A stretch of 64,000 nt of DNA from Phorcus lineatus (taxonomy: Eukaryota > Mollusca > Gastropoda > Trochida > Trochidae), in assembly GCA_921293015.1 (NCBI GenBank), contig OV121092.1, forward strand, positions 26,861,264 through 26,925,263, given 5' to 3'. Both the position numbers and the translations under genes were made by a program. Below, in pieces: positions 391 through 61,039 of the stretch. A model generated the notes under the pieces. The model ran no database searches. It was given only the letters and a program-made list of their open reading frames with translations, and had not been told where the DNA came from. Position 1 is the first letter of the stretch; each line of letters begins with the position of its first letter.

Positions 391-2639
391 TATAACATAT
401 ACAAAGTATAGAAATATAAAATTTTATGGATATTCAACTTTTTAAAATTATTATTATGCGATCTGATAATAAAGAAAGTGAATATCCATTAAATCTTTTA
501 CATGTACTTTACTACGACTAAAACTTAAGAAATCAAGACCTAAGGCAGAAAATAAATAGGCACACATAGGCTATAAGCCTTCACGCATATTAGGCACAAT
601 ACATGCAGTCTCCCTTGAGAAATTTCATACATACACTGTCAAGCAGACAGACAGAAATAATCACATTTTCCTATTTTCTTTACACAACCATTCCTTAAGC
701 GATTAATGTGAGACTTTTAGCGCGACGTCGAGAATACACACAATGCATAACGAAAACCTAAATGCTTTTAAAGGTAAAACTAGGTATAAAAAAGCCATAA
801 GAGAAATATATAAACTAAACCGATTGTCGCTTTGGGAGTCAGCATTTACATACACACAAGTTCGATATTATATAAATTACTTTGATAAGCAAAACTCCTC
901 CCATTTAGTTTTATTCACTTACCGTGTATATATATCCTGATGTCTTTTCTCGCCGTCATATTCGGATAGCTGAATGATTGACCCATCTTATCTGAGGCCT
1001 AGGTCTTCTATGTTCAAATTAAAGACGCATATGTAGTTGTACGTAAAAAATCTCAGGTCTGCAGTGGATCTAATAATAGATAAACGTAATGAGTAGATAG
1101 ATATTCCTTTCCGAGCAAGAAGCACGGTAAAAACATCTAGAGCGCTTTAATCGTAGTTTATTTAAACACAATTATACGTTGTATCATTATTGTAAGATGT
1201 ACACTATTCCAAATAGCTATCAAAATGCGTGAAAAATAAATCAATAAGTTTGTTTGCTAATATCTAAATATAGTAGTTCGTTGTTGGCGTAAACATCGTG
1301 GCCGGATATCGTTAAAATACGGGGAAACGCAATCTGGTTAAAGCGGCCTTAAAATACGCTTCGTTTTGGGGGTTTTGCTTTGGCTACGATTGTTATGCCG
1401 AATGAAAATTCATGAAAATGTGAAGCACCTGTTGACGATCTAACCCGTGCGTTTCAGATTAAATCATTCCACGACTAGTTTCAGATAAAATACTAATGGG
1501 TAACTCACAAACAGAAATTTTAATGTTAGAAGTTACCGAATCCACCAGATGAGTTTTCAGTTCAATTCGATATATTCAAATTGATATAAAAAGAGATAAA
1601 AATAGAAGATTGATTCAAGTAGGTTTTTTTTTGATAAATAACATCTTTAAAAATAATTGATGTGGTTTGCAACATGTGATAACAATGTTTTAGTAAATCG
1701 AATAATTTTTTCTGCAAAGTCGTACTAGAGAAAATAAAACAGAATCAAACTTCAGAAATTAACGAAACATCTTAAGGCCAATTTACTTGCAAATAAATAT
1801 ATTATCAACGAAAAAAATCGAAATGAATAAATTTAAAAAAAAAAAAAATTATTTGTCTCATGATTCAAGGGAAATTATATCAGTGTTTAAACAGATCAAA
1901 TCATTCAGCACAAATAGATTGTTTATATTTGGAATATGTTTGTTATCATTATTACATATTTCTTTAATTAATCCCTGACTCTGTAACCCTTGGTAACGTT
2001 GCAACGTTGCATTTACTCCAAATGAACTACGATATCGAAAATGCTGAATCGGCAGTTGCTATTGTCTATCCATTAACAATATTTAATGCCAATAAATGTT
2101 TATAAAATCGATTAAGTTAGAAGATTGCTTTAATAAACATTATTTCATCCTTTGTGCTAAGTTCAGGATTCGGTAACTTTTTCATTTTTAATTGCGGGGT
2201 AATTGTCAATATAAGAATAATTTCATTTTATCGATAGCAAGCTAAAGAGAGAGTCTATGTCCTGATATGCCTTTAAATAACCAAATTTGGACCGAAAAAG
2301 CGTGCTATAGTGATTTTAATTATCGTACAAAGCTCTACAAACCACAAGTATAGCAGAAGAGTTTCCTTAGACATGCTGTCTTGAGAGTAATTTGAACTTA
2401 GGCCGATAAAAGATGAAAACTTTTTTTGTGGAAGATGAACAGCTTTTTAAATGTAGTTCTGCAAATGATCACTTGATGGATTATATTTAACACTTATATA
2501 TAGTAATAATAATATTTAATAATATAAATGGGTAAATATTATGCGCCATAGTCCATCCAAGGATGCTCAAAGCGCTGCACATTCATTACCCTGAAGGAAT
2601 TGTACTTTCGATGCAGCTACTAAGCGCTTCGCGCGACCT

Positions 2640-3090
2640 ATATGGTCCAAACCGTATTTCCTCGAATACAACCCGGGTTTCGAATACAACACGGGCCTAC
2701 AATATATCCCGGGGGGTGCTGAGTGAAATAGAACCCGGCCTCAAATATAACCCGGGTCTCGAATATAACCCGGGCTTTTCTCTATTGAAGTATCGGTATG
2801 ACTAGTACTTGGACTAACTGTCAGGTCAATGATATTAACGCCTCTATTGTACAAATGTATCCGAGTTGTTCTCAATGTTAAAATAATCTTCGTATGATTT
2901 TCAGATGGAAAGTTATGAGATATAGAATGCCACTTTCTGACTCTTGCAATAGATTTTTTAATGCCATTTCAGCTCTGAAAAAATGGAACCCGGCCTCGAT
3001 TAGAACCCAGCCTCGATTAGAACCCGGGGGGTAACTGGGTGCTGAGTTAAATAGAACCCCGGGGTTGTATTTGAGGAAATACGGTACATC
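2640..3090. mobile_element. Inverted-repeat element rich in CCCGGG motifs
   Basis: The left end reads ACCGTATTTCCTCGAATACA followed by several short 'AATAYAACCCGGG' direct repeats. The right end, on the other strand, reads CCGTATTTCCTCAAATACAA followed by CCCCGGGGT, giving terminal inverted repeats about 430 bp apart. The GC-rich repeats stand out from AT-rich surroundings. There is no coding capacity; the small open frames here are repeat translations. Likely a non-autonomous DNA transposon. Confidence 0.45.
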
Positions 3091-3250
3091 CCGTTTTCAG
3101 GTACAAAATTGTACAGGTGGGCACATTGGATAAAGTGCCTTGCTCAAGGACACAACACAGTGTAAAGCCCAGGTCACAAATTTTGGTGACCCCACCTGGA
3201 TTCGAACCCGGGGCTAGCACGCTGACCACTACACCACCGTGCTCCACAAC
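3091..3250 (-). mobile_element. tRNA-derived SINE fragment
   Basis: On the minus strand the sequence reads GGTGTAGTGGTCAGC (A-box-like) and then GGGTTCGAATCC (B-box of a Pol III promoter), followed by TGTCCTTGAGCAAGGCACTT, a motif seen in the core of many animal SINEs. It does not fold as a full tRNA cloverleaf, so it is a SINE head and core rather than a tRNA gene. It abuts the inverted-repeat element at 2640-3090. Confidence 0.6.
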
Positions 3251-4149
3251 TATACCGCCGTGCTTTATATATATACAAATATTCAACACTTTATCAGTAT
3301 CTACATCATGTGTGGGTTTGTAAGTTCATTTCACTCATTCACTTATACGTCACAAGTGGTCCAACTGGATCAAGGAACTGAAGTGGCGTCTTCTGGTCAT
3401 TGAACCTCACGAGTTTCCTCTCCTTCTCCCTGTACACAGACCGCAACTAATATTTGTGGTATGATTGTAAATGTTATCTCTTAGCACAGAGGCAAGATTA
3501 TATCATGTCCTCAAACACGTTTGAAAATTAAAAGTTGTTTTTCAAAACATTAAACATTATACACTATCGAAAACTTTTCAAAAGGTATGACTATACGAAC
3601 CACGTGTAAAAAATACCAAAAGATAATTTGTATAAATATGTTTTATTCGAAACCTGACAAGGTCAGTATAAAGGTTGAGTTTTACATATTAAAAAGACAT
3701 ATTTTAAATCAAAGTGCTATGCATCATGTTTCCTGGTTTTTGTCATCCTGCCAAAAACTTCAGTGGGTTTAAAAAAATAATAGTTACATCTATATCTATA
3801 TTGGTGTATCGCAAGATGTAGATATGAACTTGTGCGTTAAGTTATATGTAACATTTGTAACATTTGCAATAAATACTTCCATTAATGTATCTATCTAAAG
3901 AATACATAAACTGATAGAAAGAACCAAATAATTCGAGAGTCCAGCAACACGTGATATATACATGAACATATCATAATCTTCAAACAGTCCATTTCCGTCC
4001 TCGGGCATCTAAAGGTTAATGTTTCGATGCTTTTCACATTTTAAAGCATTGGAACATTGGTAACTATGGTAACCGAAGATGATTAATTTTAGTAAGTTCA
4101 TTACATAATTTAACTATCAAAACCAGGTGTTTTCTGTTGGATATCGGTG

Positions 4150-4163
4150 GAAAAAAATATTAT

Positions 4164-4210
<47 letters not shown>

Positions 4211-4727
4211 CAGTCGCAAGCGACGACAAACGGATTCAGCGCATTAAAAGAACATTCAATACGCACATAGTGATGTTAGCAATCAATCCTGAAAGTTTCA
4301 TGAAAATTGGCCGACGCTTTTAGCTACAACAGCATGTTTCATCTGACCTAATGTGTGATTATTGCAAAGAAGTTGATAATGTGAAAACACTATGCTACTC
4401 AATCAATTGCAATCATCTTATGTTACCAATCAAAAACCTGAGTGAAACTAAATTCATATCAGGTCACATATCACCAATAATGTATTATATATAAGATATA
4501 GTTGAATCAATCCAATTTCAGATCATAGGAAATGAAATTGAGAAACCGTAACAAATATGCTTATGTTGCAGGTAAAGTGCATTAGTTAAAACAATTACTT
4601 TAATTACTCCATTTTTTACACTTTACTACAATTCTGATCATAAGGGCTATTAGCTTGCCAAGTTTGGTCGAATTTGCAGCAGTCGTTTTGGCTGAATCCG
4701 ATTCACACAAAAAATAAAAATAATAAA

Positions 4728-5129: not shown

Positions 5130-7411
5130 TCAAGATCTTTTCACCATTGATTTCAAGGCATGGAAACCTCCCTTTACACATGATATCATTGATGGAGATT
5201 TAGCCTCTTCTTTTTGAACAGAAACTTGATCTGTCTTTGATTTCAAACTAGTTACAAGCCAGTCCATTGCTTCTTGGAGGCCTTCGCCAGTTTTTGCGCT
5301 ACATCCCATTATGTTGGCCACTGGAAGGACGAGCATACAACATTTAGAAGCTTTAAAGGCACGATATCACGATTTATAGGAAACGAGATGATTAGAAAAG
5401 GAAAACAAATATTAGTAATTGCAAGACGAACTCTTTCATAACAAATAAAGGTACCCTCAAACGATGATATAAAGTTTAGAAAAGCAGATTTTCTCAAATG
5501 ATTAAAAAGTGTTCACACTTAAATGGTCACATGCACTATTGGTAAGAGATGTAATAATTTCCTTTTTGGACAACTGATAATCAGGTTGCTGAATTAGATG
5601 ATTGACCTACCATTAATCACAACCTATCATGTGATCAGAAATCAAATACAACCTATCATGTAAAGCCCCATTAAGTACAACCTAGCATATTATCCAGCAT
5701 TAAATACATTCAACCATGTAACAGCAGCAATAATTACAACCTACCATGTGACCCAGTAAGCTCATAAAAGTCCAGTTCTTTTGCCACTTGTTCCACACTG
5801 CGAGCTCCTTCCACATCTTGCTTGTTCGCCAGGATTAGAAAGATGGCGTCTTTCAGCAGTTCCTCTTGTATACATTCTTTAAACAGGTCGGCTATTTGAG
5901 AAGTATCGTACTCATCGATACAGCTGACAACTATCACCATGGCATCAACATGTAGCCTGTAAACATTTCTAGCCCAGACTCTCTGCAATAAAAAAATCAT
6001 CTTGATATAAGCATATAGTAAGTCATTTAATGCCAAAATGAAATTTTGAATAAACGCCAAAAAAAAAAAGATGAAGATGAAGATGTTATCAATAAGCCAA
6101 CTTTCGTTTTCCCCAATTTAGGACTTTTAAAGTTTAATTTGATTGCATTTGAAGCATTTCAGTACACGTGTCATTTATCGAAAATATTGAAAGAGGATCA
6201 AATAGTCGATAATTGAGATATAGTCAACTTATATTCAATGCTGCAGGACAGGATTTCCAAAAGTTGGAAAGTTATAGAAATAACCATGATGATAATGATA
6301 ATGATGACGATGTCAACAATGGTGTTATATTATGATTGATGATGAAGAAGACGATGGTGATGACGAGGAAAATAAGACTTACACTGTAATTGCGCCCTCC
6401 AAGATCCCATGACAACAAGGATATGTTGTCAATGGCAGTATTTTTATATCTGGCAACTGCAAAATGAAATAAAGGCCAGAAATAGTAAAGATGTTATCAC
6501 CAAAATTTAGCATCGGTCACTTATACTAAATACCAATGGTATACATAAAACAACTCATTTGGACCTACAGTCATGGTATGAGGTAACAGCCATGACCATT
6601 TGGGTAATTTATATGAAGTAAACTCTTTTTCTTCAAATCCATTATTTTAAACAAATTACAAAGAAATCGTGGATGAATATAATCAAATTGGCACAACATA
6701 CATATAGTTGAATGCATATGTGAAAAAGGTGAGCTGAGGGTATTTTCGTGGGTCGCTATTTCAAAATTCAGATTCGGTTTTATCAATTTGAAACAATATT
6801 AGGAAATCTTAATTTTTAACTTTACATAATGACACCGTACCATCCTCAAATCAGAGCTACTAAACTCATTTTACATTTCATTCTCTATAATGAATACCTG
6901 CTCTGGGCGACTAGAAATTTACCAATATGTTACAATACCTCAAATACGTGAATAAAAGGAGATAAACTCTGAACAAATTATATGCATTTTGTTACTTACA
7001 ACTACTTCCTTCTTCTTTAAATGCCTCGAGAATAGACTGTTTACCAGATCCATGGTATCCTGCAATTAATAGATAAATAAATAAAAAATAAATGAATTAA
7101 TCAGGTATGTAATCAAAGATAACTCACATATCAAGCATTGATCGTATCAAACCAAGGATTTATATAGGCCGTCTATATACGTCCTTGATCAAACGAATGT
7201 AAAAGCTAGTTCTCGTTATTGATTTAAATAAAGGGACGCAACTCTGTTCTGAACTGCTTGTTCAGTTTCGCTTCCATTCAATGCTGTTACATCAGTCATC
7301 AGTGACTGTGATACATACAAAGTAGAGAATGGATACATAGTTTTACATACCGTGCATAAATATCTTGAGCTTCTGTTTAGAAAATGTCTGGCTGCTCGAC
7401 AACTGCCCCAT
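5130..7411 (-). CDS. Divergent ARF-like small GTPase, copy A (5 coding exons, 207 aa)
   Basis: Coding exons, in order: 7351-7411, 7000-7059, 6383-6456, 5745-5982 and 5130-5320. All junctions are GT-AG and the lengths sum to 624 nt, an unbroken frame with stop. The ATG is the first codon of the conserved MGQLSSS start shared by all copies; Gly2 with Ser5-7 fits an N-myristoylation signal. Boxes seen: G1 at residues 21-28 (GYHGSGKQ), WDLGGR at 57-62 where ARFs have WDxGGQ, NKQD at 118-121 and SAK at 152-154. A basic tail of ~35 residues extends past the usual ARF end (ARF1 is 181 aa). Switch I is several residues shorter than in ARF1. This is the only copy that keeps Asp in WDxGG. GKQ instead of GK[ST] and Arg in place of the catalytic Gln argue against normal GTP hydrolysis. 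Membrane-trafficking or signalling role is inferred from family only. Confidence 0.87.
5321..5744 (-). repeat. Last intron of copy A with about six degenerate 29-bp units
   Basis: This intron holds only a short, decayed version of the splice-site minisatellite (about 5600-5744). The authentic donor here reads CACATG|GTAGGTTGTAAT, which is exactly the core of the repeat unit found hundreds of times in the other copies. Copy A therefore looks closest to the ancestral state. Confidence 0.7.
6285..6372. repeat. GAT/GAC-rich tract in intron 3 of copy A
   Basis: Imperfect (GAT/GAC)n sequence on the plus strand, so pyrimidine-rich in the transcript, ending a few bases from the exon 3 donor. The same tract lies in intron 3 of every copy (about 12610-12757, 19140-19222, 26445-26580, 32700-32812). 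The acidic open frames across these stretches are microsatellite translations. Confidence 0.7.
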
Positions 7412-10458: not shown

Positions 10459-13400
10459 TTATCCAGATTTTTTAACTATTGACTTCAGAGAATGGAAACC
10501 TCCCTTTACACACGATATCACTGATCGAGATTTAACCTCTGGTTTCTCGACAGGAACTAGTTCTTTCCTCGATTCCAAACTGGCTACAAACCAGTCCATC
10601 GCTTCTTGGAGGCCATCGCCAGTTTTTGCGCTACATCCCATTATGTTGGCCACTGGAAAGAAGGGCATGCAACATTTAGAAGATTTAAAGGCACTTTTTC
10701 ACGATTTACAAGAAAATCACGTGATCTTTTGAAAAGGAAAAGAAAATCAATCAATAAAAGGAGTCGTTCAACGAGGGTATCAAGTTCAGTTAAGCAGGTA
10801 TTTTCCTAAAATGATTAAACCTGCTCACACTAAAATAGCCGCATGCAGAGTTGGGTTGATAGGTTATAATTTTTTTGACACGAGAAAATCAGGTTGCTAA
10901 ATGAGATGATTGACCTCACATTAATCACAACCTCTCATGTGATCAGAAATCAAATACAACCTATCAGGTGAAAACAATAAAACCATGTGACCTACCGTTA
11001 ATTACAACCTACCATGTGACCTAACATTACAAACAACCTACCATGTGACTTACATTGTAACATTACAACCTAATACAACCAACTATGTGATCTACCATGA
11101 ATTTCAACCTGTACCATGCGGCCTAACATAAATACAAACTATCATGTGGTCCAACATGATATTACAACATACCATGTGACCTAACATTAATTACAACTTA
11201 CCATTTGACCTTACATTAATTACAACCTACCATGTTACCTAACATGAATTACAACATGTACCACGTGGCCTAATATAAATACAAACTATCATGTGGTCCA
11301 ACATGATATTACAACATACCATGTGACTAACATTAATTACAACTTACCATGTGACCTTACATTAATTACAACCTACCAAGTGACCTTACATTAATTACAA
11401 CCTACCATGTGACCTAACATTACTGACAACCTACCATTTGGTCCACCATGAACTTACAAACTACCATGTGACCTAACCTTAACTACAAACTACCATGTGC
11501 CTTACATTAATTACACCCTACCATGTTACCTAACATGGATTACAACATGTACCACGTGGCCTAATATAAATACAAACTATCATATGGTCCAACATGATAT
11601 TACAACCTACCATGTGACCTAACATTATTTACAACATACCAAGTGACCTAACATTAATTACAACCTACCATGTGACCTAACATTAATTACAACCTACCAT
11701 GTGACCTGATATCAATTACAACCTTATGTGGTCCAACGTGAAGTTACAACCTACAATGTGACTTAACATTATTTATAAGCTACCATGTGACCTAAGATGA
11801 ATTTCAAATTTCCATGTGACCTAACATTAATTACAACATACCCTGTGATCTAACATTAAGCATAAACTACTTACCATTAATTATAAACTACCATGTGGTC
11901 CAACATGAAATTACAACACGTGATCTAACATTAATTACAACCTACCATGTAACCTAACATTAATTACAACATACCATGTGACCTACACAAAATATAACTT
12001 ACCATGTGACCCAGTAAGCTCATAAAAGTCCAGTTCTTTGGCCACTTGTTCCACACTGCGAGCTCCTTCCACATCTTGCTTGTTCGCCAGGACTAAAAAG
12101 ATGGCGTCTTTCAGCCATTTATTCTGGAGAAACCCTTTAAGCAGGTCGGCTAATTGAAAAGTGTAGTAGTCATCGATACAGTCGACAACTATCACCATGG
12201 CATCAACACGGTGCCTGTAGACAGATCTAGCCCAGACTCTCTACAATAAGAAATCATCTTGATATGAACATGCAGTAAGTCATTTACATTTACAATGCCT
12301 AAAAACTGCCAAAACGAAATTTTGAATAAACGCAAATTAAATTGCTTTAACGAAATCTCTATTATGAAAAAGAGGAGAATATATTTACTTTTTCATAAGA
12401 TGAATAAATTTCCCAAAGATGAAGACGTTATCAAGAAGCCTACTTTTCGTTGCATCAAACTTTAGGTCTTTTAAAGTTTTATTTTGATTGTGCTTGAAGC
12501 TTTTCAGAACATATATAATTTATCGAAAATATTGAAAGGGGACAACATAGTCGATAATTGAGTTATATTCAACGCTGTTGGACGTCAGTAAATGTTATCG
12601 CCCAATGTTATGTAACACAATGATGATAATAACGACGATGACGATAAGTAATTATCTTCATTATACACAATATCATTATGATGATAGTGATTACAATGTC
12701 AAACATAGTGTTTTATTCATGATGAGAACGACGACGATGATGATGAAGATGACGAGGTTAAAATGCTCAGAGTACAGCTGCATACCAAAAGTTTGTTCAC
12801 TTACCACTGAATCGTAGTGTGAATATCATGCAATTTTGGTTTCGTTTCAACGTCAATAGAATAACTTAAGCAAGACTGACAACGGACCACCCATTGTCCG
12901 TGTGTGAAATAGCCATTCTTGAACACATTTTGGCATTGTCTGGTAACTCGTGCAAAAATTCGAAATTTGGCATATTGATATAGACAGATGGGGTCACATT
13001 TTCGAAAATTCGATTTCGTTAAATGTCGAATAAAATGTTCCATATCATCTCTCTGCGATTTAAACCAACATAATCACATTGAATTTGTGCTAAGAAACAA
13101 ACGTGACTATTTTTAAAAGAAGTTGATAAGTTTAAAAAGATTTTATGGAGAAAAATAAAAATTAGTGTTTTCGGAATTTTGACCCCTGGTCACTTCAATG
13201 ACCTGCCAAAACTGTTACAGGTAATTGTGGGGTACTATAAACTTTTTTCTTAAAGAAGAATGGATCTGCATATGTATATTGGAAATTCCATATTTTCGCA
13301 GCGCTACGATACCTCAAAGACATCTCAAATTACATGATATTTGCACTAGTATATTCAAGTATGTTAACAAACTTTTGACATGCAGGTGTATGTTGTTGGG

Positions 13401-17739: not shown

Positions 17740-20700
17740 TTATCTGGAATTTTTAACTATTGACTTCAGAGCATGGAAACCTCCCTTTACACACGATATC
17801 ACGGATCGAGATTTAACCTCTGGTTTCTCGACAGAAAGTCGTTCTTTCTTTGATTCCAAACCGGCTACAAGCCAGTCAATCGCTTCTGGGAGGCCTTCGC
17901 CAGTTTTTGCGCTACATCCCATTATGTTGGCCACTGGAAAGAAGAGCATGCAACATTTAGAAGCCTTAAAGGCACTATTTCAGGATTTACAGGAAAATAT
18001 TTTGATCTTCCAAAAAGAAAATAAATGTTACCAGTCAAATCAATAAAATGAGTCGTTCAACGAAGGTATCAAGTTCAGGTAAGCAGTTCACTTTCCTAAA
18101 ATGATTAAATCTGCTCACACTAAAATGGCCACATGCAGATTTGGCTTGATAGTTAATAATTTCTTTTTTTTGACAAGGGATACTCAGGTTACTAAATGAA
18201 ATGATTGATCGAACATTAATCACAACCTTTCATGTGATCAGAAATCAAATACAGCCTATCATGTGATCAGAAATCAAATACAACCTATTATGTAAACCAG
18301 CATTTAATACAATAAAACCATGTGATCTACCATCTATTACAACCTACCATGTGACCTAACATTAACTACAAACTACCATGTGACCTAACATTAACTACAA
18401 CTGCCATGTGATCTGATATCAACTACAAAATAGCATGTGACCTACCATTTATAACAACTTACCATGTGACCTAACATTAATTACAGCCTACTATGTGACC
18501 TAACATTAATTACAGCCTATCATGTGACCTAACATAAATTACAACCTACCATGTGACGTAACATTAATTACAAACTACCATGTGACCGAACATTAATACA
18601 AACTACCATGTGATTTAACATTAATTAGAAACTACCATGTGACCCTTACCTTAATTACAACCTACCATGTGACCTAACAATAATTACAACCTACCATTTG
18701 ACCTACATGAAATATAACTGACCGTGTGACCCAGTAACCTCATAAAAGTCCAGTTCTTTGGCCACTTGTTCCACACTGCGAGCTCCTTCCACATCTTGCT
18801 TGTTCGCCAGGACTAGAAAGATGGCGTCTTTCAGCCATTTATCTTGGAGAAGATCTTTAAACAGGTCGGCTGATTGAAAAGTGTAATAGTCATCGATACA
18901 GTCGACAACTATCAGCATGGCATCGACACGTTGCTTGTACACATAACTGGCCCAGACTCTCTACAATAACAAGTTATCTTGAGTAAGTCATTTTCATTTG
19001 AATGCTTAAAAACTACCAAAACGAAATTTTGAATATAAAGCAAAATGAATTTCTATAACGACACCTCTGTTGTGAGAAAGAGGATAATACAGTCACTTCG
19101 TCCTAAGATAAATGACTTTAATCAAATTGGTAAATTAAACTGATGATAACCACTATGACGATTGGTGATGGAGATGATGATAATGAGGATGATGATGACG
19201 ACGATGATGATGACGATGGCATTAATACTTACACTGTAACCGCGCCCTCCAAGACCCCACGACATCAAGGTTATGTTGTTAATGACAGTCTTTTTATATT
19301 CGACAACTGTCAAATGAAAAAAAAACAGAAATAGAAAATATAATATCAAAATATTTTAGCGTCGTTTACTAAACACTTATTGCATATATAGAGCAACGCT
19401 TTGGGAACTGCAGTCATTGCTTATATTAAAGGTAAGAGCCATGACCAATTAGGTAATTTATAATGTAAGTAAACTATTTTGCTGTTTTTCTTTATTTTAA
19501 ACAAATCACAAAGAAATCGTTGATGAATATAATCAAACTGGCACAAAATATATATAGTTGATTGCATATGAGAAACAGGTGAGCTGAGGGTATTTTCGTG
19601 AGTCGTTATTTCAAAATTCAGATTTGTTTAATTAATATGAAACGATATTAGGAAATATTGCCTCGGTTACTTATACTAAATGCTAAGAAACTCATTGAGA
19701 ATTCACAATCATTACTTATATTACCAATTGGGTAATTTATATATCAAATTTAAAATCAATGCACTTTAACTTTACAAAGTGACTTCATCCTCATAAGCAG
19801 AGCTACTAAACGCAAGGGCGGTTTGATAGCGTTTTGATGAATCACATGCTCTAAGCATATACAATTTAACCAACATGTAATAATGCCTCGAATTCACCGA
19901 TAAAAGCATTTAAACCCCTAAAAAAATTATATGTATTTTTTTACTTACAACTACTTCCTTCTGCTTCAAATGCCTCGAGAATAGACTGTTTGCCAGATCC
20001 AGGGAACCCTGCAAGACAGATTACGAAACCAATTCCTAAAAAAACACTGTCGTGTACTCTGTAAGTAGGAACGTTCTAAGATGGCGACAAAAACAGTACG
20101 ACACAGATAGGTGTCTGATTCCATTGCTCGTTGCTCCTAATTGTCGAGGTCAAAATGGTTAAATTTAACTGTGAATAGTCAGGATATAAATAAGGAATAC
20201 ATTGGAGCATCTTTTGGTTGCACAACTCCAAGAAATGTGTTTGCCATTTAAAGTTGAAGTTTATCGCACTCATGTTTTTGAAGCGGGGATGACTACTCAA
20301 AAAGGTGTTTTTTTCTATCTTTAAGGAGCTTAATTGAGTGTTATAGACATCGTCACGCAAAATTGCTATCGGTCGTAAAATATTTCTGTTCAATTGAAAT
20401 GGATTTGACTTTGACACCTAGGTGGTCTAAACATTCAATTTCTAAGTTTAGGTTTGAAATGGGTGGTCAAGTTCAAAATTTTAATATCAGGAATTTTGTC
20501 TCTTCTACAGAATATTGATCTGAAATTGAGTTCCCTCCATACCCTATTATATCCTCATCCAAAAAGTTCCTCTCCCAACCTTTATTTCTGGGTCCCCTCC
20601 GCCGATTTAAATCCGGGTTCCCTCCGCTGCCTTGTTGATTTTTTAAATTTGGCAGTACCTAATCAATTACTTTTAATTGCACAGAAATCTTTATAACGAC

Positions 20701-25197: not shown

Positions 25198-27949
25198 TTA
25201 TTTATAATTTTTAACTATTGACTTCAGAGCATGGAAACCTCCCTTTACACACGATATCACTGATCGAGATTTAACCTCTGGTTTTTCGACAGAAACTCGT
25301 TCTTTCTTTGATTCCAAACTGGTTACAAGCCAGTTTATCGCTTCTTGGAGGCCTTCGCCAGTTTTTGCGCTACATCCCATTATGTTGGCCACTGGAAAGA
25401 AGAGCATACAACATTAAGAAGCTTTAAAGGCACTATATCACGATTTACAGGACAATCACGTGATCTTCCGAAAAGGAAAACAAATGTTACCAACCAAATC
25501 AATAAAATGAGTCAAGTTCCGTTAAGCAGGTCACTTTCCTTAAAGGATTAAAGCTGCTCACGCAAAAATGGACGCATGCAGATTTGGCTTGATAGATAAT
25601 AATTTCTTTTAAAATGAGTCGTTCATCGTGTAAAATGAGTCGTTCAATTAAAGCTCCTCACATTAATTACAACCTACTATGTGACATACCATTCATTACA
25701 ACCTACCATGTGACATACCATTAATTGAAACCGACCATGTGACCTACCATTAATAACAAACTACCATGTGGTTCAACGTGAAATTACAACCTACCATGTG
25801 ACCTAATTAAATCAAAACTTACCATGTGACCCAGTTAGCTCATAAAAGTCCAGTTTTTTGGCCACTTGTTCCACACCGCGGGCTGCTTTCACATCCTGCG
25901 TGTTCGCTAGGATTAGAAAGATGACGTTTTTCAGTTGTTTCTCTTGGAGAAACTCTTTAAACAGATCGGCTATTAGAGAAGTGTAGTAGTCATCGATACA
26001 GTCGACAACTATCACGATGGCATCAACTCCTTGCTTGTAAATATACCTGGCCCAGACTCTCTACGATAAAAAAAACCATCTTGATATGAGCATACAATAA
26101 GTCATTTATATTTAACCTTTTGAATGCTTAAAAACTACCAAAAGAAATTTTGAATATAATTGCAAATTAAATTTCTGGAACGACACCTCTATTTTGATAA
26201 AGACGGGAATGTATTTACTTCTTCCAGAGATCAGTAAATTTCCCAAAAATGAAGACGATTTATCAAGAAGCCTACTTTTCACTGTTCCCTATTTAGGTCT
26301 TTTAAAGTTTTAATTTTGATTGAATTTGAATCATTTCAGTACATGTACCATTTATCGAAAATATTGAAAGAGGACCAAATAGTCGATAACTGAGTTATAT
26401 TCACTGCTGTTCGACATCAGTAAACGTTATAGTCCAAATGTTATGTGCATTGATACAACGATGATGACAACGACGATAACGATTAGTGATGCTTATAATA
26501 ATCATATTGAAGATCCACATCAATATAATGATAATGATAACAATGTCATGGATGATAACGATGACGATGACGATGAAGAGTATGTTTGTATGGGTCAGAT
26601 ATGTCAGACTTTTAAAATGGTGTCAATTCGTGGACAAGTAGTGGCTGTTCAGAATTAACATCTTAATGCTTATCAGTTAGCATAGTAACAATAAACTGGA
26701 AAATATAGATATAAGTTGGTAACGATAAGTAGGTAATTTAACTAAATTTCATGTAAATGGGGCGCAGAAATTCGAATCCCTAACATTTTTATGGCCATTT
26801 TTTATTTAAAATCGAAAATAAGAAAATGTCATATTTTGGTGTTTAAGAGACAAATATGCAACTTTAGATAAGCGATTTGAACTATACACAGGCCATATGT
26901 TATTTTGGCTCTATTTAAGCCACATACAAAAATTAATCTTACTCTGTGCCATTTTAATAAGACTTACACTGTAATCGCGCCCTCCAAGACCCCATGATAT
27001 CAAGGATGTTTTGTTCATGGCAGTCTTTTTATATCCGGCAACTGCAAAATAAAAAAAACCAAAAAATTGTAAACATAATTTTTTTTATTTCATTTAAACT
27101 AAGCACAAAGAAACCATTGTTGAATAAAATCAAAGTGGCACAAAATTGAACAGGTAAGCTGGGAATATTTTCTTGAGTCGCTAGTTCACATCATATAGCG
27201 TTCTTTGCATAATATCAAAATCAATGCACTTTAACTTTATATAATGACATCATCCTCAAAACCAGAACTAATAAAAGCCAGGGCATTTCTACATTTTATT
27301 CTCTTTAGTCATTTATCTCCTCTTGGAGAATATGATTTAACCCATATGTAACTCAAATACATTTATAGAATAAACCCTTAACACTTTATTTACTAACCAA
27401 TACTTCCTTCTGCTTCAAATGCCTCGAGAATAGACTGTTTACCAGATCCAATGCATCCTGAAAGTCAGATTACGAAATCAAAGCCTTTTTGTAGTATTTG
27501 AGGTCTTCTGTCTAATTAAATAAATAAATAAATAAATGAATAAATAAATAAAGAGAGAGAGAGAGACAGAGAGACAGAGAGACAGAGCGACAGAGACAGA
27601 GAGATAGAGAGAGAGAGAGAGAGACAGAGAGAGAGAAAGAATGGATGAATGAATTAGTTAATTAATTAATTGAGTAATTAGTCAGGTATGAAATCAAAGA
27701 TAGCTCACATATCAAGCTAAAGAAGCATTGATTGTATCAAACGACTGTAAAAGCAAGATTGCTCGTTAAACTGATTAAAATAAGGGGACGCCACTCTGTT
27801 CGAACTGCTTGTTCAGTTCCGTATCTATTCATCATAGACTGTGATATATATACAAAGTGAAGAATGGATACTTAGTATTACTTACCGTGCATAAATATCT
27901 TGATGTCCTGTTTAGACGATAATGCCTGGCTGCTCGATAACTGCCCCAT
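25198..27949 (-). CDS. Divergent ARF-like small GTPase, copy D, with altered NKxD box (209 aa)
   Basis: Coding exons: 27886-27949, 27398-27457, 26968-27041, 25823-26060 and 25198-25391; the sum of 630 nt is in frame. Boxes: GCIGSGKQ, WGLGGR, then NTQD where the other four copies have NKQD, and SAK. The Lys of NKxD stacks on the guanine base in small GTPases, so copy D has lost a nucleotide-contacting residue as well as the changes common to the family. The exon 2 donor is GTTAGT rather than GTAAGT. Still no stop or frameshift. It may be a pseudo-GTPase or the first step of decay. Confidence 0.82.
25660..25822 (-). repeat. Short 29-bp splice-site minisatellite in last intron of copy D
   Basis: Five to six units adjoining the exon 4 donor, much shorter than in B, C and E. 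Confidence 0.8.
26576..26962. mobile_element. TTAA-family element in intron 3 of copy D, left end lost
   Basis: The right end (ACTCTGTGCCATTTTAA) and interior match the TTAA element of copy B at the same position next to exon 3, and match the copy at 46072-46547. The left TTAA is gone, and the element starts within AGAGTATG. It lacks the nested 614-bp insert of copy B. Confidence 0.65.
27516..27650. repeat. (AAAT)n/(GA)n compound microsatellite, intron 1 of copy D
   Basis: AAAT repeats followed by a ~90-bp purine-only GAGA/GACA tract in copy D. Confidence 0.9.
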
Positions 27950-30380: not shown

Positions 30381-33300
30381 TTATCTAGATTTTTTAACTA
30401 TTGACTTCAGAGCATGGAAACCTCCCTTTACACACGATATCACTGATCGAGATTTAGCATCTGGTTTTTCAACAAGGACACGTTCTTTCTTTGATTCCAA
30501 ACTAGTTACAAGCCAGTCCATTGCTTCTTGGAGGCCTTCGCTAGTTTTTGCGCTACATCCCATTATGTTCGCCACTGGAAAGAAGAACATACAACATTAA
30601 GAAGCTTTAAAGGCACTATATCACGATTTACAGGAAAATCATGTGATCTTCCGAAAGGAAAACAAATCTTACCAATCAAATCAATAATATGAGTCAAGTT
30701 CCGTTAAGCAGGTCACTTTCCTTAAAGGATTAAAGCTGCTCACGCAAAAATGGACGCATGCAGATTTGGCTTGATAGATAATAATTTCTTTTATTTGGCA
30801 AGGGATAATCAGAATGAGATGATTGACCGAACATGTGATCAGAAACCAAATACAACCTATTATAGTGAATACAATAAAACCATTAATTACAACCTACCAT
30901 GTGACCTACCATTCATTACAACCTACCATGTGGCCTACCATTAATAACAACCTTCCATGTTACCTACCCTTAATTACAACCTACCATGTGGCCTACCATT
31001 AATAACAACCTACCATGTGACCTCACATGATTACAACCTACCATGAGGCCTACCATTAATAACAACCTACCATGTGACCGTCCCTTAATTACAACCTACC
31101 ATGTGGCCTACCATTAATAACAACCTACCATGTGACCTAACATGATTACAACCTACCATGTGACCTTACATGATTACAACCTACCATGAGACCTAACATG
31201 AGTGAGTGAGTTATTGTTTAACGCCGCTTGGGCAATATTACAGCCATTAGCGGCGACCTAACATGATTACAACCTACTATGTGACCTACCATTAATAACA
31301 ACCTACTATGTGACCTACCATTAATAACAAGCTAAAATGTGACCTACCCTTGATTACAGCCTACTATGTGACCTACCATTGAGTAAAACCTACCATGAGA
31401 CCTAATACGATTACAACCCATTATGTGACCTACCTATAATTACAACCTACCATGTGACCTACCATTTATTAAAACCTACCATGAGACCTAACATGATTAC
31501 TCCCTACTATGTGACCTACCATTAATAACAACCTACCATATGACCTACCATTAATAACAACCTACCATATGACCTAACATGATTACAACCTACCATGTGA
31601 CCTACCATTAATAACAACCTACCATGTGAGCTACTATTAATAACAACCTACCATGTGACCTAACATGATTACAACCTACTATGTTACCTACCATTAATAA
31701 CAACCTACCAAATGACCTACCATTAGTAACAACCTACATTGTACCATGTGACCTACCATTAATTACAGCCTACCATGTGACCTACCGTTAATTATAACCT
31801 ACCATGTGACCTACAATTAATAACAACCTACCACGTGACCTACCATTAATTACAACCTACCATGTGACCTACCACTAATTACAGCCTACCATGTGACCTA
31901 CCGTTAATTAAAACCTACCATGTGACCTAACGTTAATAACAAACTACCATTTGCTCCAAAGTGAAATTACAACCTACCATGTGATCTAATTGAATTAAAA
32001 CTTACCATGTGACCCAGTAACCTCATAAAAGTCCAGTTCTTTGGCCAATTGTTCCACACCGCGAGCTCCTTCCACATCTTGCTTGTTCGCCAGGACTAGA
32101 AAGATGGCGTCTTTTAGCCATTTTTCTTGGAGAAGCTCTTTAAACAGATCGGCTATTAGAGAAGTGTAGTATTCATCGATACAGTCGACAACTATCACAA
32201 TGGCATCAACTCCTTGCTTGTAAATAAAACTGGCCCAGGCTCTCTACAATAAAAAATCATCTTGACATGAGCATGCAGTAAGTCATTTACATTTGAATCC
32301 TTAAAAACTGCCCAAACGAAATTTTGAACATAAAAAAAATTTCTGGAACGAAACCTCTAAGATGAATAATTTTTTCCAAGATGAAGATGTTATCAAGAAG
32401 TTTACTTTTCGTTGTCCCCCAATTTAGGTCTTTTAAGGTTTTATTGCGATGGAATTCGAAGCATTTCAGAACATATGCAATTTATCGAAAATATTAAAGG
32501 AGGCCAAATAGTAGTAACTGAGTTATATGCAACGATGTTGTATATAAGTAAATGTTATTGCCCAATGTTAAGGTCTTTGATACAATGATGATGATTAGTC
32601 AGATAGACAAAATGTAATGGTATGTATGGCCCGGAGACCAATTTTACAATGTTAAGTAGTTTTATCTAAACAGTTCGTTACGATAAGTAATGGTTATAAC
32701 AATGATCATGATGATCAACATCACAATGATATTATTACGATGTAAACAATGTTTTTTTAAAAATTTTGATTGATGATGACGACGACGATGACGATGGTGA
32801 TGACGAGGTTAATGAGACTCACACTGTAATTGCGCCCTCCAAGACCCCACGATACCAAGGATATGTTGTTTATGGCAGTCTTTTTATATCCGGCAACTGT
32901 CAAATGAAAAAGACAACAGAAATAGTAATATCAACAACTTTTAGCGTCGGTTACTCATACTAAACACTCATTGCATACATAAAGCAACGCATTGGAAACT
33001 AGAGTCTTATATTAAAGGTATGAGCCATGACCACTTGGGTAATTTTATTTGGTATTAAAATATTCTGTTGTTTTTCTTCAAATCCATTAAATATTTTAAA
33101 CAAATCAGGGAATATATAGCGTTCTTTGCAAAATTTATCAAAATCAATGCGGTTTAACATTATATAATGGCATCGTCCTAAAAAACAAGAGCTACTAAAA
33201 GCTAGGGCGGTTGTACATTTCATTCTCTACAGTCATTTACCTGCTCTGGGAATATATAATTTAACCCATATGTAACTGAAATACATTTATAAAATAAACT

Positions 33301-35529: not shown

Positions 35530-37085
35530 TTCAAATAATAAATCACTATCATTCAAAAGGTTTACATAATAAATAACTATCATTCAAACGGTTTACATGA
35601 TAAATAACTATCATTCGAAAGGTTTACAAAATAAATCAATATCATTCAAAAGGTTAACATAATAAATCACTATCATTCAAAATATCATTCAAAAGGTTTA
35701 CATAATAAATCACTATCATTCAAAAGGTTAACATATTAAATCACTATCAATCAAAAGGTTTACAGTATGAATCATTATGATTAAAAAGCTTTACATAATA
35801 AATCACTATCATTCAAAAGGTTAACATATTAAATCACTATCAATCAAAAGGTTTACAGTATGAATCATTATGATTTAAAAAAATTACATGATAAATAACT
35901 ATCATTCAAAAGGTTTGCATAATCAATAACTATAATTCAAAAGGTTTGCATAATAAATCAATATCATTCAAAAGGTTTACATAATAAATCACTATCATTC
36001 AAAAGGTTTACATAATCAATAACTATCATTCAAGAGGTTAACATAATAAATCACTATCAATCAAAAGGTTTACAGTATGAATCATTATGATTAAAAAAAA
36101 TTACATGATAAATCACTATCATTCAAAAGTTTTGCATAATAAATCAATATCATTCAAACGGTTTACATAATAGATAACTATCATTCAAAAGGTTTACATA
36201 ATAAATAACTATCATTCAAAAGGTTTACATAATCAATAACTATAATTCAAAAGGTTTACATAATAAATCAATATCATTCAAAAGGTATACATAATAAATC
36301 ACTATCATTCAAAAGCTTTACATAATCAATAACTATAATTCAAAAGGTTTGCATAATAAATCACTATCATTCAAACGGTTTACATAATAAATAACTATGA
36401 TTCAAAAGGTTTACATAATAAATAACTATCATTCAAAAGGTTTACATAATAAATCACTATAATTCAAAAGGTTTACATAATAAATCAATATCATTCAAAA
36501 GCTTTACATAATAAATCACTATCATTCAAAAGGTTAACATAATAAATCACTATCAATCAAAAGGTTTACAGTATGAATCATTATGATTAAAAAAATTTAC
36601 ATGATAAATCACTATCATTCAAAAGTTTTGCATAATAAATCAATATCATTCAAACGGTTAACATAATAAATAATTATCATTCAAAAGGTTTACATAATCA
36701 ATAACTATTTTTTACATGATAAATCACTATCATTCAAAAGTTTTGCATAATAAATCAATATCATTCAAACAGTTTACATAATAAATAACTATCATTCAAA
36801 AGGTTTACATAATAAATAACTATCATTCAAAAGGTTTACATAATCAATGTCTATAATTCAAAAGGTTTGCATAATAAATCAATATCATTCAAAAGGTTTA
36901 CATAATAAATAACTATCATTCAAAAGCTTTACATAATCAATAACTATAATTCAAAAGGTTTGCATAATAAATCACTATCATTCAAACGGTTTACATAATA
37001 AATAACTATGATTCAAAAGGTTTACATAATAAATAACTATCATCCAAAAGGTTTACATAATCAATAACTATCATTCAAGAGGTTG
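35530..37085. repeat. 31-bp minisatellite array, about 50 units
   Basis: The period of 31 bp was measured between successive CACTATCATTCAAAAGG cores. Units differ at a few positions (CACTATC / AACTATC / AATATC; AAAAGG / AAACGG; TTTACAT / TTTGCAT). Blocks of several variants recur in the same order (for example around 35690-35870, 36030-36150 and 36520-36640), indicating higher-order duplication. Not related to the ARF intron repeat. Confidence 0.92.
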
Positions 37086-40860: not shown

Positions 40861-41503
40861 AATGCAAAACAAATATTTTAAATATATCCTTTTACGCAAA
40901 TAAAATCTTATTTAAGCAACAATAGCTTCATACGTATGCAGAATATTAGTGAGGGCTCTTATAGTGTTTGCAGTTTATTCTAAGAAATGACAATCAATAT
41001 CTATATACACATATTGAATAATATTGATATGTGTACATAAAAGTGTCCATTGTTATACCAACAGTATTAAATGCTTGTTAAACCTCAATAAACTTTGATC
41101 ATTAAAACTTTAATCATCGTAGTATTGCGATATGACACACGGTAGGGAAAGTGTGAAACTGAAAGTGAAAGCTTACCTATCATTCAACGCATGTTGACGT
41201 TAATGATTCTTACATCAAGACATGCTGTCAGGTTATGTCATATTTTTAGAATTTTGAGTTAAAGTTGAAGAACGATAATTCCTTAAAGTCCCAACAACAA
41301 GGACTTTTAATTGTTGAACTCAGGGGTTGCTTGAGACTCGAATTTATTATTCTATATTGTAAATGTAGTTACTAAGTTGGATTAAATAGGTTGCTACAAT
41401 AAGTCGTACCGAAAAAACGCCTTATATTAATTCGTTATTTTTTGCATTTTTAATCTGTTGCACCTGCTTTAAGACCACTACGATACCACTGGTAAACCAA
41501 AAC

Positions 41504-41969
41504 TTAAAGAGCCACTCCGTAATTTTCATAACATATTATTTACTTTTGATACAAACCTAAATGTCATATGTGGTGATATAAAATCTTAACTTTCATGTCC
41601 AAAAGACAAATATATGACAAATACTGGTTTTCCAAGAAAATCTAAAAACAGACTTATAAATGCACAGAGGTGTACATATCCCGTCCAATCTACATGGATA
41701 CTTGTTAATTAATCTAACAAACGCTATCAACTCCTAACTGCCCTCCTGACTGTTTTAGATAAGTCTCCAAAATTAAGTTTGACAATTTGACGCGCTACAC
41801 TGTCCGGTTTTCGATCATTATTGCGACGACCTACCTTCATTTTGTCACTGTAAAAAATAAAAGCTTTAAAATGTGTCGTTTTGGTAACAGTCGATTCTTC
41901 GCGATCAAATGACACCATTGATTAAGTTTGGCATATCTGACTCCAACAACTCACGGAGTGGCTCTTTAA
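41504..41969. mobile_element. TTAA-flanked TIR element, copy 1 (466 bp)
   Basis: TTAA + AGAGCCACTCCGT at the left, and ACGGAGTGGCTCT + TTAA at the right. Internally similar over its length to 47972-48448 (same orientation) and 60557-61039 (opposite). No transposase. TTAA flanks fit a piggyBac-type MITE. The open frame across it (41727-41918) is element sequence. Confidence 0.8.
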
Positions 41970-47852: not shown

Positions 47853-50033
47853 GTTGACGCACGGCAGTGCTGGTCTCATGTGAATGGAAGATCTAAAATC
47901 TTCTTGTGAGTGAAGCACTCGTAAAATATAGAACACATGAAGCTATACAGAATCGGTCATGGCGTTCAGATTTAAAGAGCCACTCCGTGATTTTCATAAC
48001 ATGTTATTTACCTTTGATACGTACCTAAATGTCAAATGTGGTGACATAAAATCAAAACATCTTAACTTTATATGTCCAAAAGACATATATATGACAAATA
48101 CTGGTTTTCCATGAACATCTAAAACAGCCTTATAAATGCACAGAGATGTAGATATCACATCATACTGACATGGATACTAGTTATATCTAACAAACACTAT
48201 CAACTCCTAACTGCCCTCCTTGCTGTTTTATATAATTAAGTCTCCAAAATTACGTTTGACGATTTGACGCGCGCCACTGTCCGGTTTTCGATCATAATTT
48301 GCGACGTTCTACCTTCATATTGTCACTGTAAAAAAACCAATAAGCTTTAAAATGTGTCTTTTTGGTAACAGTCGATACTTCGCAATCAAATGACACCATT
48401 GATTTAGTTTGGCATATGACTCCAATAACTCATGGAGTGGCTCTTTAACAATGAATAAAATCAGTTTGTTGTCCGTTTGTTTAATGTTGGTCTTTAAAGC
48501 GTTTTACAAAAAACAGTAAGAAATAAAGTAAAGGATATCACATATTAAAATAATAATTATAATATTTGATTCAGATTATAGCGGGGTAATATGCGAATCA
48601 TATACCCAATCGAAATCGATAACGAAATAGTTTTTATGTTTAATGTTTATTTTATTACAAAGTATATTTCAGATAAGACCCATGCTATCATTGATACCTT
48701 GTTGATTGCAAATAATATGTATTTGATGTACGTTTACTTCATGATCAGTTGTGGAGTTGATGAGCAATGCTGCGGCACAACATGTTGTCGGATAGAAGAA
48801 GTCGTGTACACGCTATGGTACTTTTGGTGAGTACAGTTCTCCTCAATCTCATTAAAATAAGATCGAAACGAAACAGTATCCCGTGCGGCCTAATTGGTCA
48901 AAACAAAGACATTTTAAACCAATGAATTAGGACATAGAAATACTTTCTCCATTCGAATGGACAGAAAGTCGTTTCTAACCTTGCAAAAACTTGGTAAATG
49001 TATATTACATCCGCTGTGTATCGCTAAGCTTGATTCAAGACCCGGGTTGGATTTACTTTAGCACCTCAGTGACCCCCTTGTTGAACACAAGCCCCTCATT
49101 ATATTGGGGTCATGGGTTGTCTACTAGAAACTACAATTTTTTTAGTTTTTACTTTTTCGTCAGGTTAACCGTTGTCCTGCTCGTGTTCCTGTGCGCTGCC
49201 GGTATCTACTGGATGAGGAGAAGATACATCTATCATAAACTCCTCGCAGTGCCAGCCTGGAACTCTCAACAGCTCCTGCAACCAAGGTTGCTTCGAGATT
49301 GTACGTTTTTACTGGATCGCTATTAGAAAATTTTACAAATGAAATTTTTAAGTAAGGCAGATTATGTCATCAACAGTCAGTGATTCATTCATTTAAACAG
49401 TTGTCACTGCATGCTCGAACTCCATGCACTGTTCCCCAAATCACTATGTTACTCATCATTGGTCACCGATTCATGTTTTAGACTTTGAAGTTTGTTACTG
49501 CTTCCTGCTAGTATTGCTTTAAAAATGTGCACTGTAACAATGATTAAAAACTCTGATAAAGTTTTTGCAGTTTCCTTTAAATATCAGTTTAAAATTGAAC
49601 TTATATATAAATAAATATATAAATATGCCATGATAAATATTTATCGTATGACAAAAACAAAAAACTAAAACGTTAACACTTCGCCTCGTCTTACTAAGAC
49701 TGTGATATAAACAAATTTTAAAGCTATGGAACGGGATCGTATGAACAATTGCATAAGTTGCAAGAGACGGATGTTTTAAAGTAGAAGAAATACGAAAGAA
49801 AACTGCATGAGCATTTTCTCGTTGTTTTCATAACGATAACCCTTTTGCTTACAGGTCGAAATGAAATAAACATTCCCTCGAAACCAAACGAGATTCAAAC
49901 TCAACCGTTCCCGCTTCCACCGTACACTCCACCCATCAACCCACCACCTTATACCGAGGCTGTAATGGACAAGCCGCCGCTTTATAACGAGGAGATGGAG
50001 TCTGATGCAAATAAAACTTCACTTTTGAGATAA
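47853..50033 (+). CDS. VOPP1/WBP1-like single-pass membrane protein (four 3' coding exons)
   Basis: Exons 47853-47905, 48749-48826, 49164-49300 and 49855-50033, joined in phase by GT-AG introns, give 148 codons plus stop. The first seen exon encodes a mature N-terminus beginning VDARQCW. Next come a cysteine knot CGVDEQCCGTTCC, LWYFW, a transmembrane segment (LTVVLLVFLCAAGIYW), a basic stop-transfer (MRRRY), and a proline-rich cytosolic tail with PPPY and PPLY (WW-domain ligands) plus a variant LPPY. CCGxxCC + LWYFW + TM + PPxY is the layout of the VOPP1/WBP1 family. These proteins recruit WW-domain (NEDD4-type, WWOX) partners on endosomal/lysosomal membranes. The signal-peptide exon (phase 0 junction) was not found. 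The TTAA element at 47972-48448 sits in the first intron. VOPP1 versus WBP1 cannot be decided here. Confidence 0.8.
47972..48448. mobile_element. TTAA-flanked TIR element, copy 2 (477 bp), intronic
   Basis: TTAA + AGAGCCACTCCGTGA ... ending GGAGTGGCTCT + TTAA. Same orientation as copy 1. It lies in an intron of the VOPP1/WBP1-like gene. Confidence 0.8.
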
Positions 50034-50109: not shown

Positions 50110-51215
50110 AGTTCTTGCTAAAAGCAGCAATATATTCGTATATAATCTGGATGTTGTGGAGATAATCATTTCATAACAGGGAAGGTGTGGATATTTTCTT
50201 GTCTTGTTCTGTTGCGATGTACAGATGATCGTGTCATACCAGCGATTGTATTGAGATGATCGTATGACACCAGTGACGGTGTGATGTTGATGATCGTATC
50301 TTACCAAGGGCGGCATGGAGTGTGTAGCAAAGCAAAGATGATGTTGAGATGATCGTGTCATACCAAGGGCGTTGTGGAGAATCGAATCATACCAGTTGCG
50401 GTGTACAGATGATCGTGTCATAACAGCGATTGTATGGAGATGATCGTATCATACCAGTGATGGTGTGAAGATCTTACCAAGGGCGGCGTGAAATGCGGAG
50501 CATACCAAAGATGATGTTGAGATGATCGTATTATACAAAGGGCGGTGTGGAGATGATCGTATCATACCAGGGTTGGTGAACAGATGATCATGTCATACCA
50601 GATTAGATACACTGATCACGCTATATCAGATTAGCTGTACAAATGATCATATCATATCAGATTAGGTGTACAATTGATCGTATCATAATCATGGCGATGT
50701 AGATATAACCGTTTCATACCATCAGGGGTTTATATATGATCGTATTACACAAGGGGAGGGTGGTAATAAGTGTTACATACTATGAATGATGTGGAAAATA
50801 ATGTATCTTACTGTGACCATGTGTAGATAACCGTATCGTGCCAGTGATGGTGTGGAAATAATCATTCGACACAAGGTTATTGGAAGACATTATCGTACCT
50901 TACAAGTTGCAGAGGTGAGACAATCATGGCGTGGAGCTGATCTAATCATACCAGAGGTGTCGTGGAGCTGATAGTAGCATACCAAGAAACATCAGACGGT
51001 CGTAACATACTAGGGATGGTGTGGAGCTGATCTCATCATACCAGAGATGGTGTGGAAATTGTCATATCATACCAAGAACGATGTGAAAACGCATGTCATA
51101 CCAGGGACGGACTTTTATAATCCAAAGTGATAATCAGCTTATCATACCGGAAGTGAAGTGCAGAGGAATACATACCAGAGGCTATGTTAAGTGGTTGATA
51201 TACCAGGGATGGTCG
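50110..51215. repeat. Degenerate minisatellite after the VOPP1/WBP1-like stop codon
   Basis: Roughly 30-36-bp units built on GATGATCGTATCATACCAG, strongly diverged, with spacer variants (GGTGTGGA, GGCGGTGTG). Begins ~80-150 bp after the stop codon, so it may be transcribed as 3' UTR. The 112-codon minus-strand frame here is repeat translation. Confidence 0.75.
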
Positions 51216-60556: not shown

Positions 60557-61039
60557 TTAAAGAGCCACTCCGTGAGTTGTTTGAGTCATATATGTCAAAC
60601 TTAATCAATGGTGTCATTAGATCGTGAAGAATCGACTGTTACCAAAAACACACATTTTAAAGCTAATTTGTTCTGTACAGTGACAATATGAAGGTAGAAC
60701 GTCGCAATTGTGATCGAAAACTGGACAGTGGCGCGCGTCAAATAGTCAAACGCAATTTTGAAGACTTATCTTAAACAGCCAGGAGGGCAGTTAGGAGTTG
60801 ATAGTGTTTTTTTAGGTTATGTAACTAGTATCAATGTACATTGGACGTATATCTACACCTCTGTGCATTTATAAGGCTGTTTTTAGATTTTCTTGGAAAA
60901 CCAGTATTTGTCATATAAATGTCTTTTGGACATGAAACGTTAAGATGTTTTGATTTTATGTCACCACATATGACATTTAGCTATAGGTTCGTATCAAAGG
61001 TAAGAAATATGTTATGAAAATCACGGAGTGGCTCTTTAA
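60557..61039. mobile_element. TTAA-flanked TIR element, copy 3 (483 bp), inverted
   Basis: TTAA + AGAGCCACTCCGTGA at the left and TCACGGAGTGGCTCT + TTAA at the right. The interior is the reverse complement of copies 1 and 2 (its left side reads GTCAAACTTAATCAATGG, the complement of their right side). Confidence 0.8.

Follow-up and report, generated by a model that had tools for sequence, protein, structure and literature searches.

Five tandem genes of a divergent Arf family, copies A to E, lie on the minus strand of the 64-kb window (the whole stretch of DNA that was analysed), and in all five the last intron carries a 29-bp minisatellite that opens exactly at the donor and in register with it. 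Each unit reproduces the end of exon 4 followed by the start of the intron, as a sequence-only reading of this DNA had claimed and as unit decomposition confirms in A to E. The origin of the array from a splice junction is well supported, and we think it probable that the ancestral exon 4/intron 4 junction was amplified into an intronic minisatellite which was then inherited, re-expanded and tolerated rather than used. If so, a single genome records how an exon/intron boundary turned into a minisatellite that persisted through several gene duplications and grew in each copy, and it holds two further cases, one in a divergent paralog (gene Z) and one in an Arl5/Arl8-like gene with ~38 nt of coding sequence per unit.

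The family assignment comes from a PF00025 match on exons 4–5 of copy B (E 3.8e-19; 69.2 bits, cut-off 22.3), and the closest solved-structure matches of the family protein are Arl1 and Arl3. Exons 2–5 were found in 5/5 copies, all of which read open through exons 4–5. Pairwise comparison of exons 4–5 among A–E (10 pairs) gives dN/dS values of 0.46–0.68 and dS values of 0.12–0.26; in the dS ranking copy A is the outlier, B and C are the closest pair (0.12) and D–E stands at 0.16, in a tie with B–D. The canonical motifs of small GTPases are the P-loop GxxGxGK[ST] and the switch II WDxGGQ. Both are absent here, the exons reading GSGKQ and W[GD]LGGR in 5/5 copies (in exon 2, e.g. 19944-20015, and exon 3, e.g. 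19236-19310, respectively), so nucleotide handling is perhaps unusual, and nucleotide binding or hydrolysis by these proteins is possibly altered, judging from the motifs. A protein search of the 957.8-Mb genome returned 19 matches, made up of ten for exons 4 and 5 of A–E, two for gene Z and seven for distant Arf sequences.

Table 1. Positions of the arrays, flanking exons and distal blocks of copies A to E in the window; a slash marks the exon/intron border.
Feature	Position	Strand	Remarks
Copy A array	5603..5756	-	TRF, unit decomposition; 5 units + 1 partial; donor 5744 = unit
Copy A exon 4	5745..5982	-	
Copy A exon 5	5130..5320	-	
Copy A distal 46-bp block	5611..5656	-	
Copy B array	10911..12014	-	TRF, unit decomposition; includes last 12 exon 4 bases and authentic donor
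Copy B exon 4	12003..12240	-	Ends CTGGGTCACATG/GTAAGT; donor GT at 12002
Copy B exon 5, last coding, with stop	10459..10652	-	
Copy B distal 46-bp block, dead-donor units	10919..10964	-	Common to A, C, partly E
Copy C array, 19 rows	18206..18734	-	Authentic donor ACG/GTCAGT at 18722
Copy C exon 4	18723..18960	-	
Copy C exon 5	17740..17933	-	
Copy C distal 46-bp block	18214..18259	-	
Copy D array, short, 7 rows	25656..25834	-	Donor ATG/GTAAGT at 25822; distal block unrecognisable
Copy D exon 4	25823..26060	-	
Copy D exon 5	25198..25391	-	
Copy E array, long, 41 rows	30826..32017	-	Donor ATG/GTAAGT at 32005
Copy E exon 4	32006..32243	-	
Copy E exon 5	30381..30574	-	

The A–E unit reads TTAGGTCACATG/GTAGGTTGTAATTAATG, where the slash stands at the position of the exon/intron border, and is composed of ~12 nt of exon 4 and 17 nt of intron. 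From the donor of copy B the array runs along the minus strand to 10911 and fills 40 rows of 29 columns. Unit decomposition of A to E gives 6, 40, 19, 7 and 41 rows, a count that takes in the authentic first row and the partial last row, or 4, 38, 17, 5 and 39 downstream units when partial ones are left out. The authentic junction is GTCACATG/GTAGGTTGTAATTATTG in copy A (in longer form CTGGGTCACATG/GTAGGTTGTAATTATTG), ...CACATG/GTAAGTTATATTTTG in B, ...CACACG/GTCAGTTATATTTCA in C, ...CACATG/GTAAGTTTTGATTTA in D and ...CACATG/GTAAGTTTTAATTCA in E; outside copy A the real donor has departed from the unit, becoming the stronger GTAAGT in B, D and E and GTCAGT in C. Exact identity of authentic donor and unit had been asserted for copy A, and there it holds, GTCACATG/GTAGGTTGTAATTATTG being the same as the quoted GTCACATG/GTAGGTTGTAAT; it is confined to that copy, B, C, D and E having diverged, and the array for which the claim was made is that of copy B, whose authentic donor GTAAGTTATATT is unlike the unit.

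On the exon side, the last 12 bases agree with the unit at 10/12 positions in A, B, D and E, nine of them unbroken, and at 9/12 in C (P 0 to 0.0006, 20,000 exon shuffles per copy); beyond nine bases the exon and the unit differ. Only one base separates this fit from that of the same exon ends to the unit of gene Z (10/12 against 9/12, and 9 against 8 in C), a narrow margin that counts against the junction reading. On the intron side, which was compared past the donor hexamer in A, B and E, agreement with the unit is significant in A (P 0.003) and not in B (P 0.46) or E (P 0.29), a pattern that would follow from separate evolution of the real junction and the array, or from a seed resembling copy A. 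The seed itself would have comprised roughly 12 bases from the end of the exon and 17 from the start of the intron, duplicated in tandem in an ancestral Arf-like gene, and the junction duplicate would then have become a minisatellite within the last intron.

The five arrays share ancestry. Those of A, B, C and partly E finish with dead-donor units of identical type, and the 46-bp distal block, which contains CTGATCAC, is identical at 45/46 positions between A and B and at 44/46 both between A and C and between B and C. The remaining intron is identical at 191/296, 197/298 and 221/281 positions in the same three pairs (gaps counted as differences), and the conservation of the block is unmatched by any of the overlapping 46-column windows farther downstream (260, 260 and 230 of them). 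It is partly deleted in E (27–28/46). A TTGGACC-type unit variant is present in B, D and E, and in their first units B resembles C and D resembles E (identity 0.93 and 0.90 over two units in the D–E pair), yet these units are unlike the array interior. The nearest neighbour of a unit comes from the same locus at a proportion of 0.57, against 0.30 when labels are shuffled (maximum of 500 shuffles 0.43), relationships being read from nearest neighbours and shared variants. As unit types are common between copies, an array with several types is older than the A–E duplications and was later expanded separately. The statement that the same structure occurs in C, D and E was thus right, though the likeness is largely inherited, distal and some proximal variant units being common between copies. 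Growth and homogenisation of the ancestral, already mixed array would have proceeded separately in each gene copy, with slippage or unequal crossing-over as the probable mechanism, and the outermost, real junction would mostly have escaped homogenisation. Drift is a poor explanation for the near-identity of the distal block among these three copies; this conservation, like the presence of arrays in all six family members found, counts against tolerance, although the block is partly deleted in E and gone in D.

The sixth member, gene Z, is divergent and occupies a stretch ~5.4 to 9.0 kb beyond the left edge of the window (in L018 about 1034-4537, in window coordinates about -5463 to -8966). Its array has a unit of 38–39 bp that agrees with the Z exon end at 12/13 positions, where the A–E unit reaches 10/13, and that resembles the Z intron start in its tail (P 0.016). 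A genome search with the Z array gave four matches, 4/4 within its own Z intron among the best-scored candidates. One block of the array recurs farther along the same intron. The array occupies the same intron in 6/6 family genes found (A–E and Z), and no array-less member was found among these six, the empty ancestral state not being seen. It is quite conceivable, though we hold the view only tentatively, that the arrays of Z and of A–E are one ancient array whose unit changed in length and was updated by exchange with exon ends. This reading is compatible with junction amplification and concerns only the number of seedings. The shared intron position speaks for it, as do the similar exon parts of the units and the distal edge units of Z, AGGTCACATG/GTAGGT, which have the A–E form. 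Against it stand the different unit lengths, 29 against 38–39 bp, and the intron parts past the donor, the tails of the A–E and Z units not being significantly alike (P 0.31).

A separate and clearer splice-junction array is found at L046, an Arl5/Arl8-like exon located on the same contig at a distance of ~2.5 Mb (G000:C19:24396116-24399277, 1501-2460). Its array has 17 rows including the authentic one, at 48–51-bp spacing, with ~38 coding and ~12 intron bases per unit. A unit chosen by inspection from the 50-bp class matches the last 38 exon bases at 37/38 positions, and the 16 downstream units, compared without gaps, at 25–35 of 38, against a maximum of 20 in 20,000 exon shuffles. The exon end encodes WHIQGCCALTGEG, one residue off the solved Arl8 (WHIQSCCALTGEG) and Arl5 (WHIQACCALTGEG); since the exon part is conserved coding sequence, the direction from exon to array is clear there. 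L046 is one case among seven distant Arf matches and does not give a rate: the Arf proteins L041, L042 and L045 have no intron at the corresponding position and no array touching there, and no array was found at the match end in L043, L044 and L047.

Dozens of decoy donors next to the real one had been proposed from the sequence, with the suggestion that every unit be scored with a donor model. An in-register G/GT is retained by at least 23 units in B and at least 27 in E (unplaceable rows skipped), which bears out the abundance of decoys in these two copies. Scored with a human weight matrix not trained on this species (threshold >4), the five arrays contain 12.5–37 donor-like sites per kb, real donors included, against 0.58 per kb outside the arrays on the same strand of the window and 0–0.8 per kb when the arrays are read on the other strand; beside the real donor there are 13 such sites in B and 43 in E. 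The matrix ranks the real donor top in D and E and tied in A (with one out-of-register site) and B (with three sites), and in copy C seven GT sites of the intron score at least as high as the real donor. By pairing energy with the 5' end of U1, the number of sites as good as or better than the real donor is 1, 3, 15, 0 and 4 in A to E. Strong decoys in register number 0/4 in copy A, which has one out-of-register GTAGGT at 5610.

When exon 4 is extended past the real donor, a stop appears as the 4th to 7th codon, its last base falling at intron +11 in A, D and E and at +20 in B and C, and in all five copies every in-register decoy with an intact G/GT lies past it. The early in-frame stop predicted to follow decoy use is therefore present, and mistakes onto these sites would be truncated or degraded. 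For decay, a stop usually needs to lie at least 50 nt before a junction; this distance ahead of the new junction is reached for 0/1 decoys in A, 21/23 in B, 7/9 in C, 2/4 in D and 25/27 in E. Conservation was measured over 101 decoy units, a set that excludes first units and any row with >6 gaps. It amounts to 0.867 at positions -1 to +6 of the donor, against 0.855 elsewhere in the unit (rank 16 of 29 circular shifts), and the full donor core is intact in 42/101 units, against 37.3 +- 2.7 in column shuffles, a slight excess that shared descent of the units could also yield. Because donor columns are kept about as well as other columns, these 101 units give no clear sign of selection keeping or purging decoys as donors, which makes tolerance likelier than regulation. 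Under tolerance, the first donor after the exon would win, the real one being top or tied in 4/5 copies by the weight matrix, and mis-splicing onto in-register decoys would run into the stop and yield a truncated product or degraded RNA.

Two outcomes had been envisaged for the array, namely that it tunes expression through nonsense-mediated decay or that it is tolerated as the outermost donor wins. Tuning is possible on paper, given that all in-register decoys lie past the stop, and in a fuller form it becomes a splicing rheostat, in which decoys compete for U1 and their use, or the titration of U1, cuts output to a level set by array length. We consider this unlikely. The many donor-like sites beside the real donor in B and E would suit such a device, as would the early stops, the very unequal copy number between paralogs, the highly conserved distal block of A, B and C and the slight excess of intact cores, and the fact that each of the six family genes found has its array in this one intron could hint at use. 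On the other side, the donor core columns are not preferentially conserved, copy A has no strong in-register decoy and yet keeps exons 4–5 open, and the comparable repeats of lancelets, called mirages, are suggested, in the parts of the reports available to us, to be harmless to normal splicing (PMC3087553, PMC3902484). Tolerance with the outermost donor winning fits better than decay tuning, although the outermost donor of copy C is not the strongest by the matrix scores. Bolder still, and in our judgement quite improbable, is the idea that donor junctions have been arrayed repeatedly since decoys set splicing output, copy number being an evolving dial protected by the stop, the distal block a control element and the same device present outside lancelets, for example in the Arl5/Arl8-like gene.

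The direction of events might also be reversed, an unrelated satellite or mobile tandem repeat having landed at the junction so that one unit became the donor and the exon end is repeat-derived. Many units carry a usable donor and could in principle supply an exon end, and the divergence of exon and unit past nine bases in A–E would fit. This origin is nonetheless very unlikely, since a 121-bp array query against the 957.8-Mb genome (74 contigs) found 29 matches, 29/29 of them in the window, with no dispersed copies of the A–E unit outside it among the best-scored candidates; the repeats of Z and L046 differ, each fitting its own junction; and the exon part of L046 is conserved coding sequence. 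A satellite elsewhere in the genome, named in the sequence-only reading as what would overturn it, was accordingly looked for genome-wide and not found among the best-scored candidates, and splice-junction amplification as the origin is supported both by this and by Z and L046 being built likewise from their own junctions. That the repeats were collapsed or invented in assembly is scarcely credible, for although tandem repeats are prone to mis-assembly and the array lengths come from one assembly, five diverged copies (dS 0.12–0.26), whose units differ as well and include variants specific to one locus, cannot stem from a single artefact, and Z and L046 were constructed separately.

Three tandem copies of GGTAAGT gave 510+523 = 1,033 matches genome-wide and a mirror-image control 652+491 = 1,143, so that this crude pattern count, made per match and not per array, shows no excess and speaks against donor arrays dominating the genome. 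Among TRF rows of the window +-100 kb (period >=15, >=3.5 copies), every family array has a unit donor scoring >=4, and the sole other such row is a 188-bp consensus near -43 kb. The notion that minisatellites in this neighbourhood generally derive from donors was abandoned. Inspection by eye of two arrays with 31-bp units (35.5 kb and 50.2 kb) did not reveal a splice-junction array. The first (35535-37084) has ~45 copies of a unit without a strong donor and no recognised exon link, and the second (50223-51074) consists of degenerate repeats with the core ATCATACCAG. The window also contains a ~480-bp dispersed repeat in three copies that are ~86–87% identical (41499-41969, 47972-48448 and 60557-61044).

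These genes make an old question testable, namely how the spliceosome chooses one donor among dozens alike that lie tens of bases apart. The five paralogs form a natural series running from 4 to 39 downstream units, in which the real donor falls short of, matches or exceeds its decoys in score, depending on the copy, and they show a known but seldom described kind of repeat to be present in every family member found.

The closest known systems are the mirages of lancelets, minisatellite-like repeats across exon/intron boundaries described, in the parts of the report available, from Adh3 and the globins BflGb6 and BflGb9 (PMC3087553; the Adh details are second-hand), and likewise from troponin C and PGBD5 (PMC3902484). 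As far as those parts go, mirage units join an exon edge to adjoining intron, many with AG/GT signals, and the interior units of the BflGb6 mirage are homogenised with the cluster edges excluded (PMC3087553). The same features recur in the mollusc: in A–E, Z and L046 the unit joins an exon part to the adjoining intron of an authentic boundary, the units bear splice signals able to serve as cryptic sites, and concerted evolution acts inside the A–E arrays to the exclusion of their first and distal units. The A–E arrays are therefore mirages by definition, a class already known in lancelets. They differ from the lancelet cases in their mollusc host, in involving a 5' splice site in each case seen, in reaching up to ~40 units, and in occupying the same intron in all six family genes found, inherited via duplications and locally re-expanded. 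The mitochondrial contig of the genome (C74) has ND2, COX1 and COX2 next to one another, a gastropod-type gene order and not a lancelet one. The A–E case itself was not noticed among the best-ranked matches in the open-licence literature searched, and an intronic 27-bp minisatellite reported from abalone is not placed at a splice junction in the parts of that report seen. The Rogers model of 'introns from tandem arrays' reportedly derives intron gain from tandem duplication of AGGT-containing exon sequence; here too a sequence carrying splice signals was duplicated in tandem, but in A–E an existing intron was lengthened and none was newly made. Human internal tandem repeats in genes of segmental duplications are, in the available parts of the report, ~30-bp minisatellites, some at exon-intron boundaries, which similarly vary between recent paralogs; half of them, in contrast, lie in coding sequence, and they change exons or form introns and are not intronic donor arrays (PMC2812944). 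The proposal, as given in the parts available, that decay shelters weak splicing in new introns (PMC2809761) would by analogy fit the A–E arrays equally.
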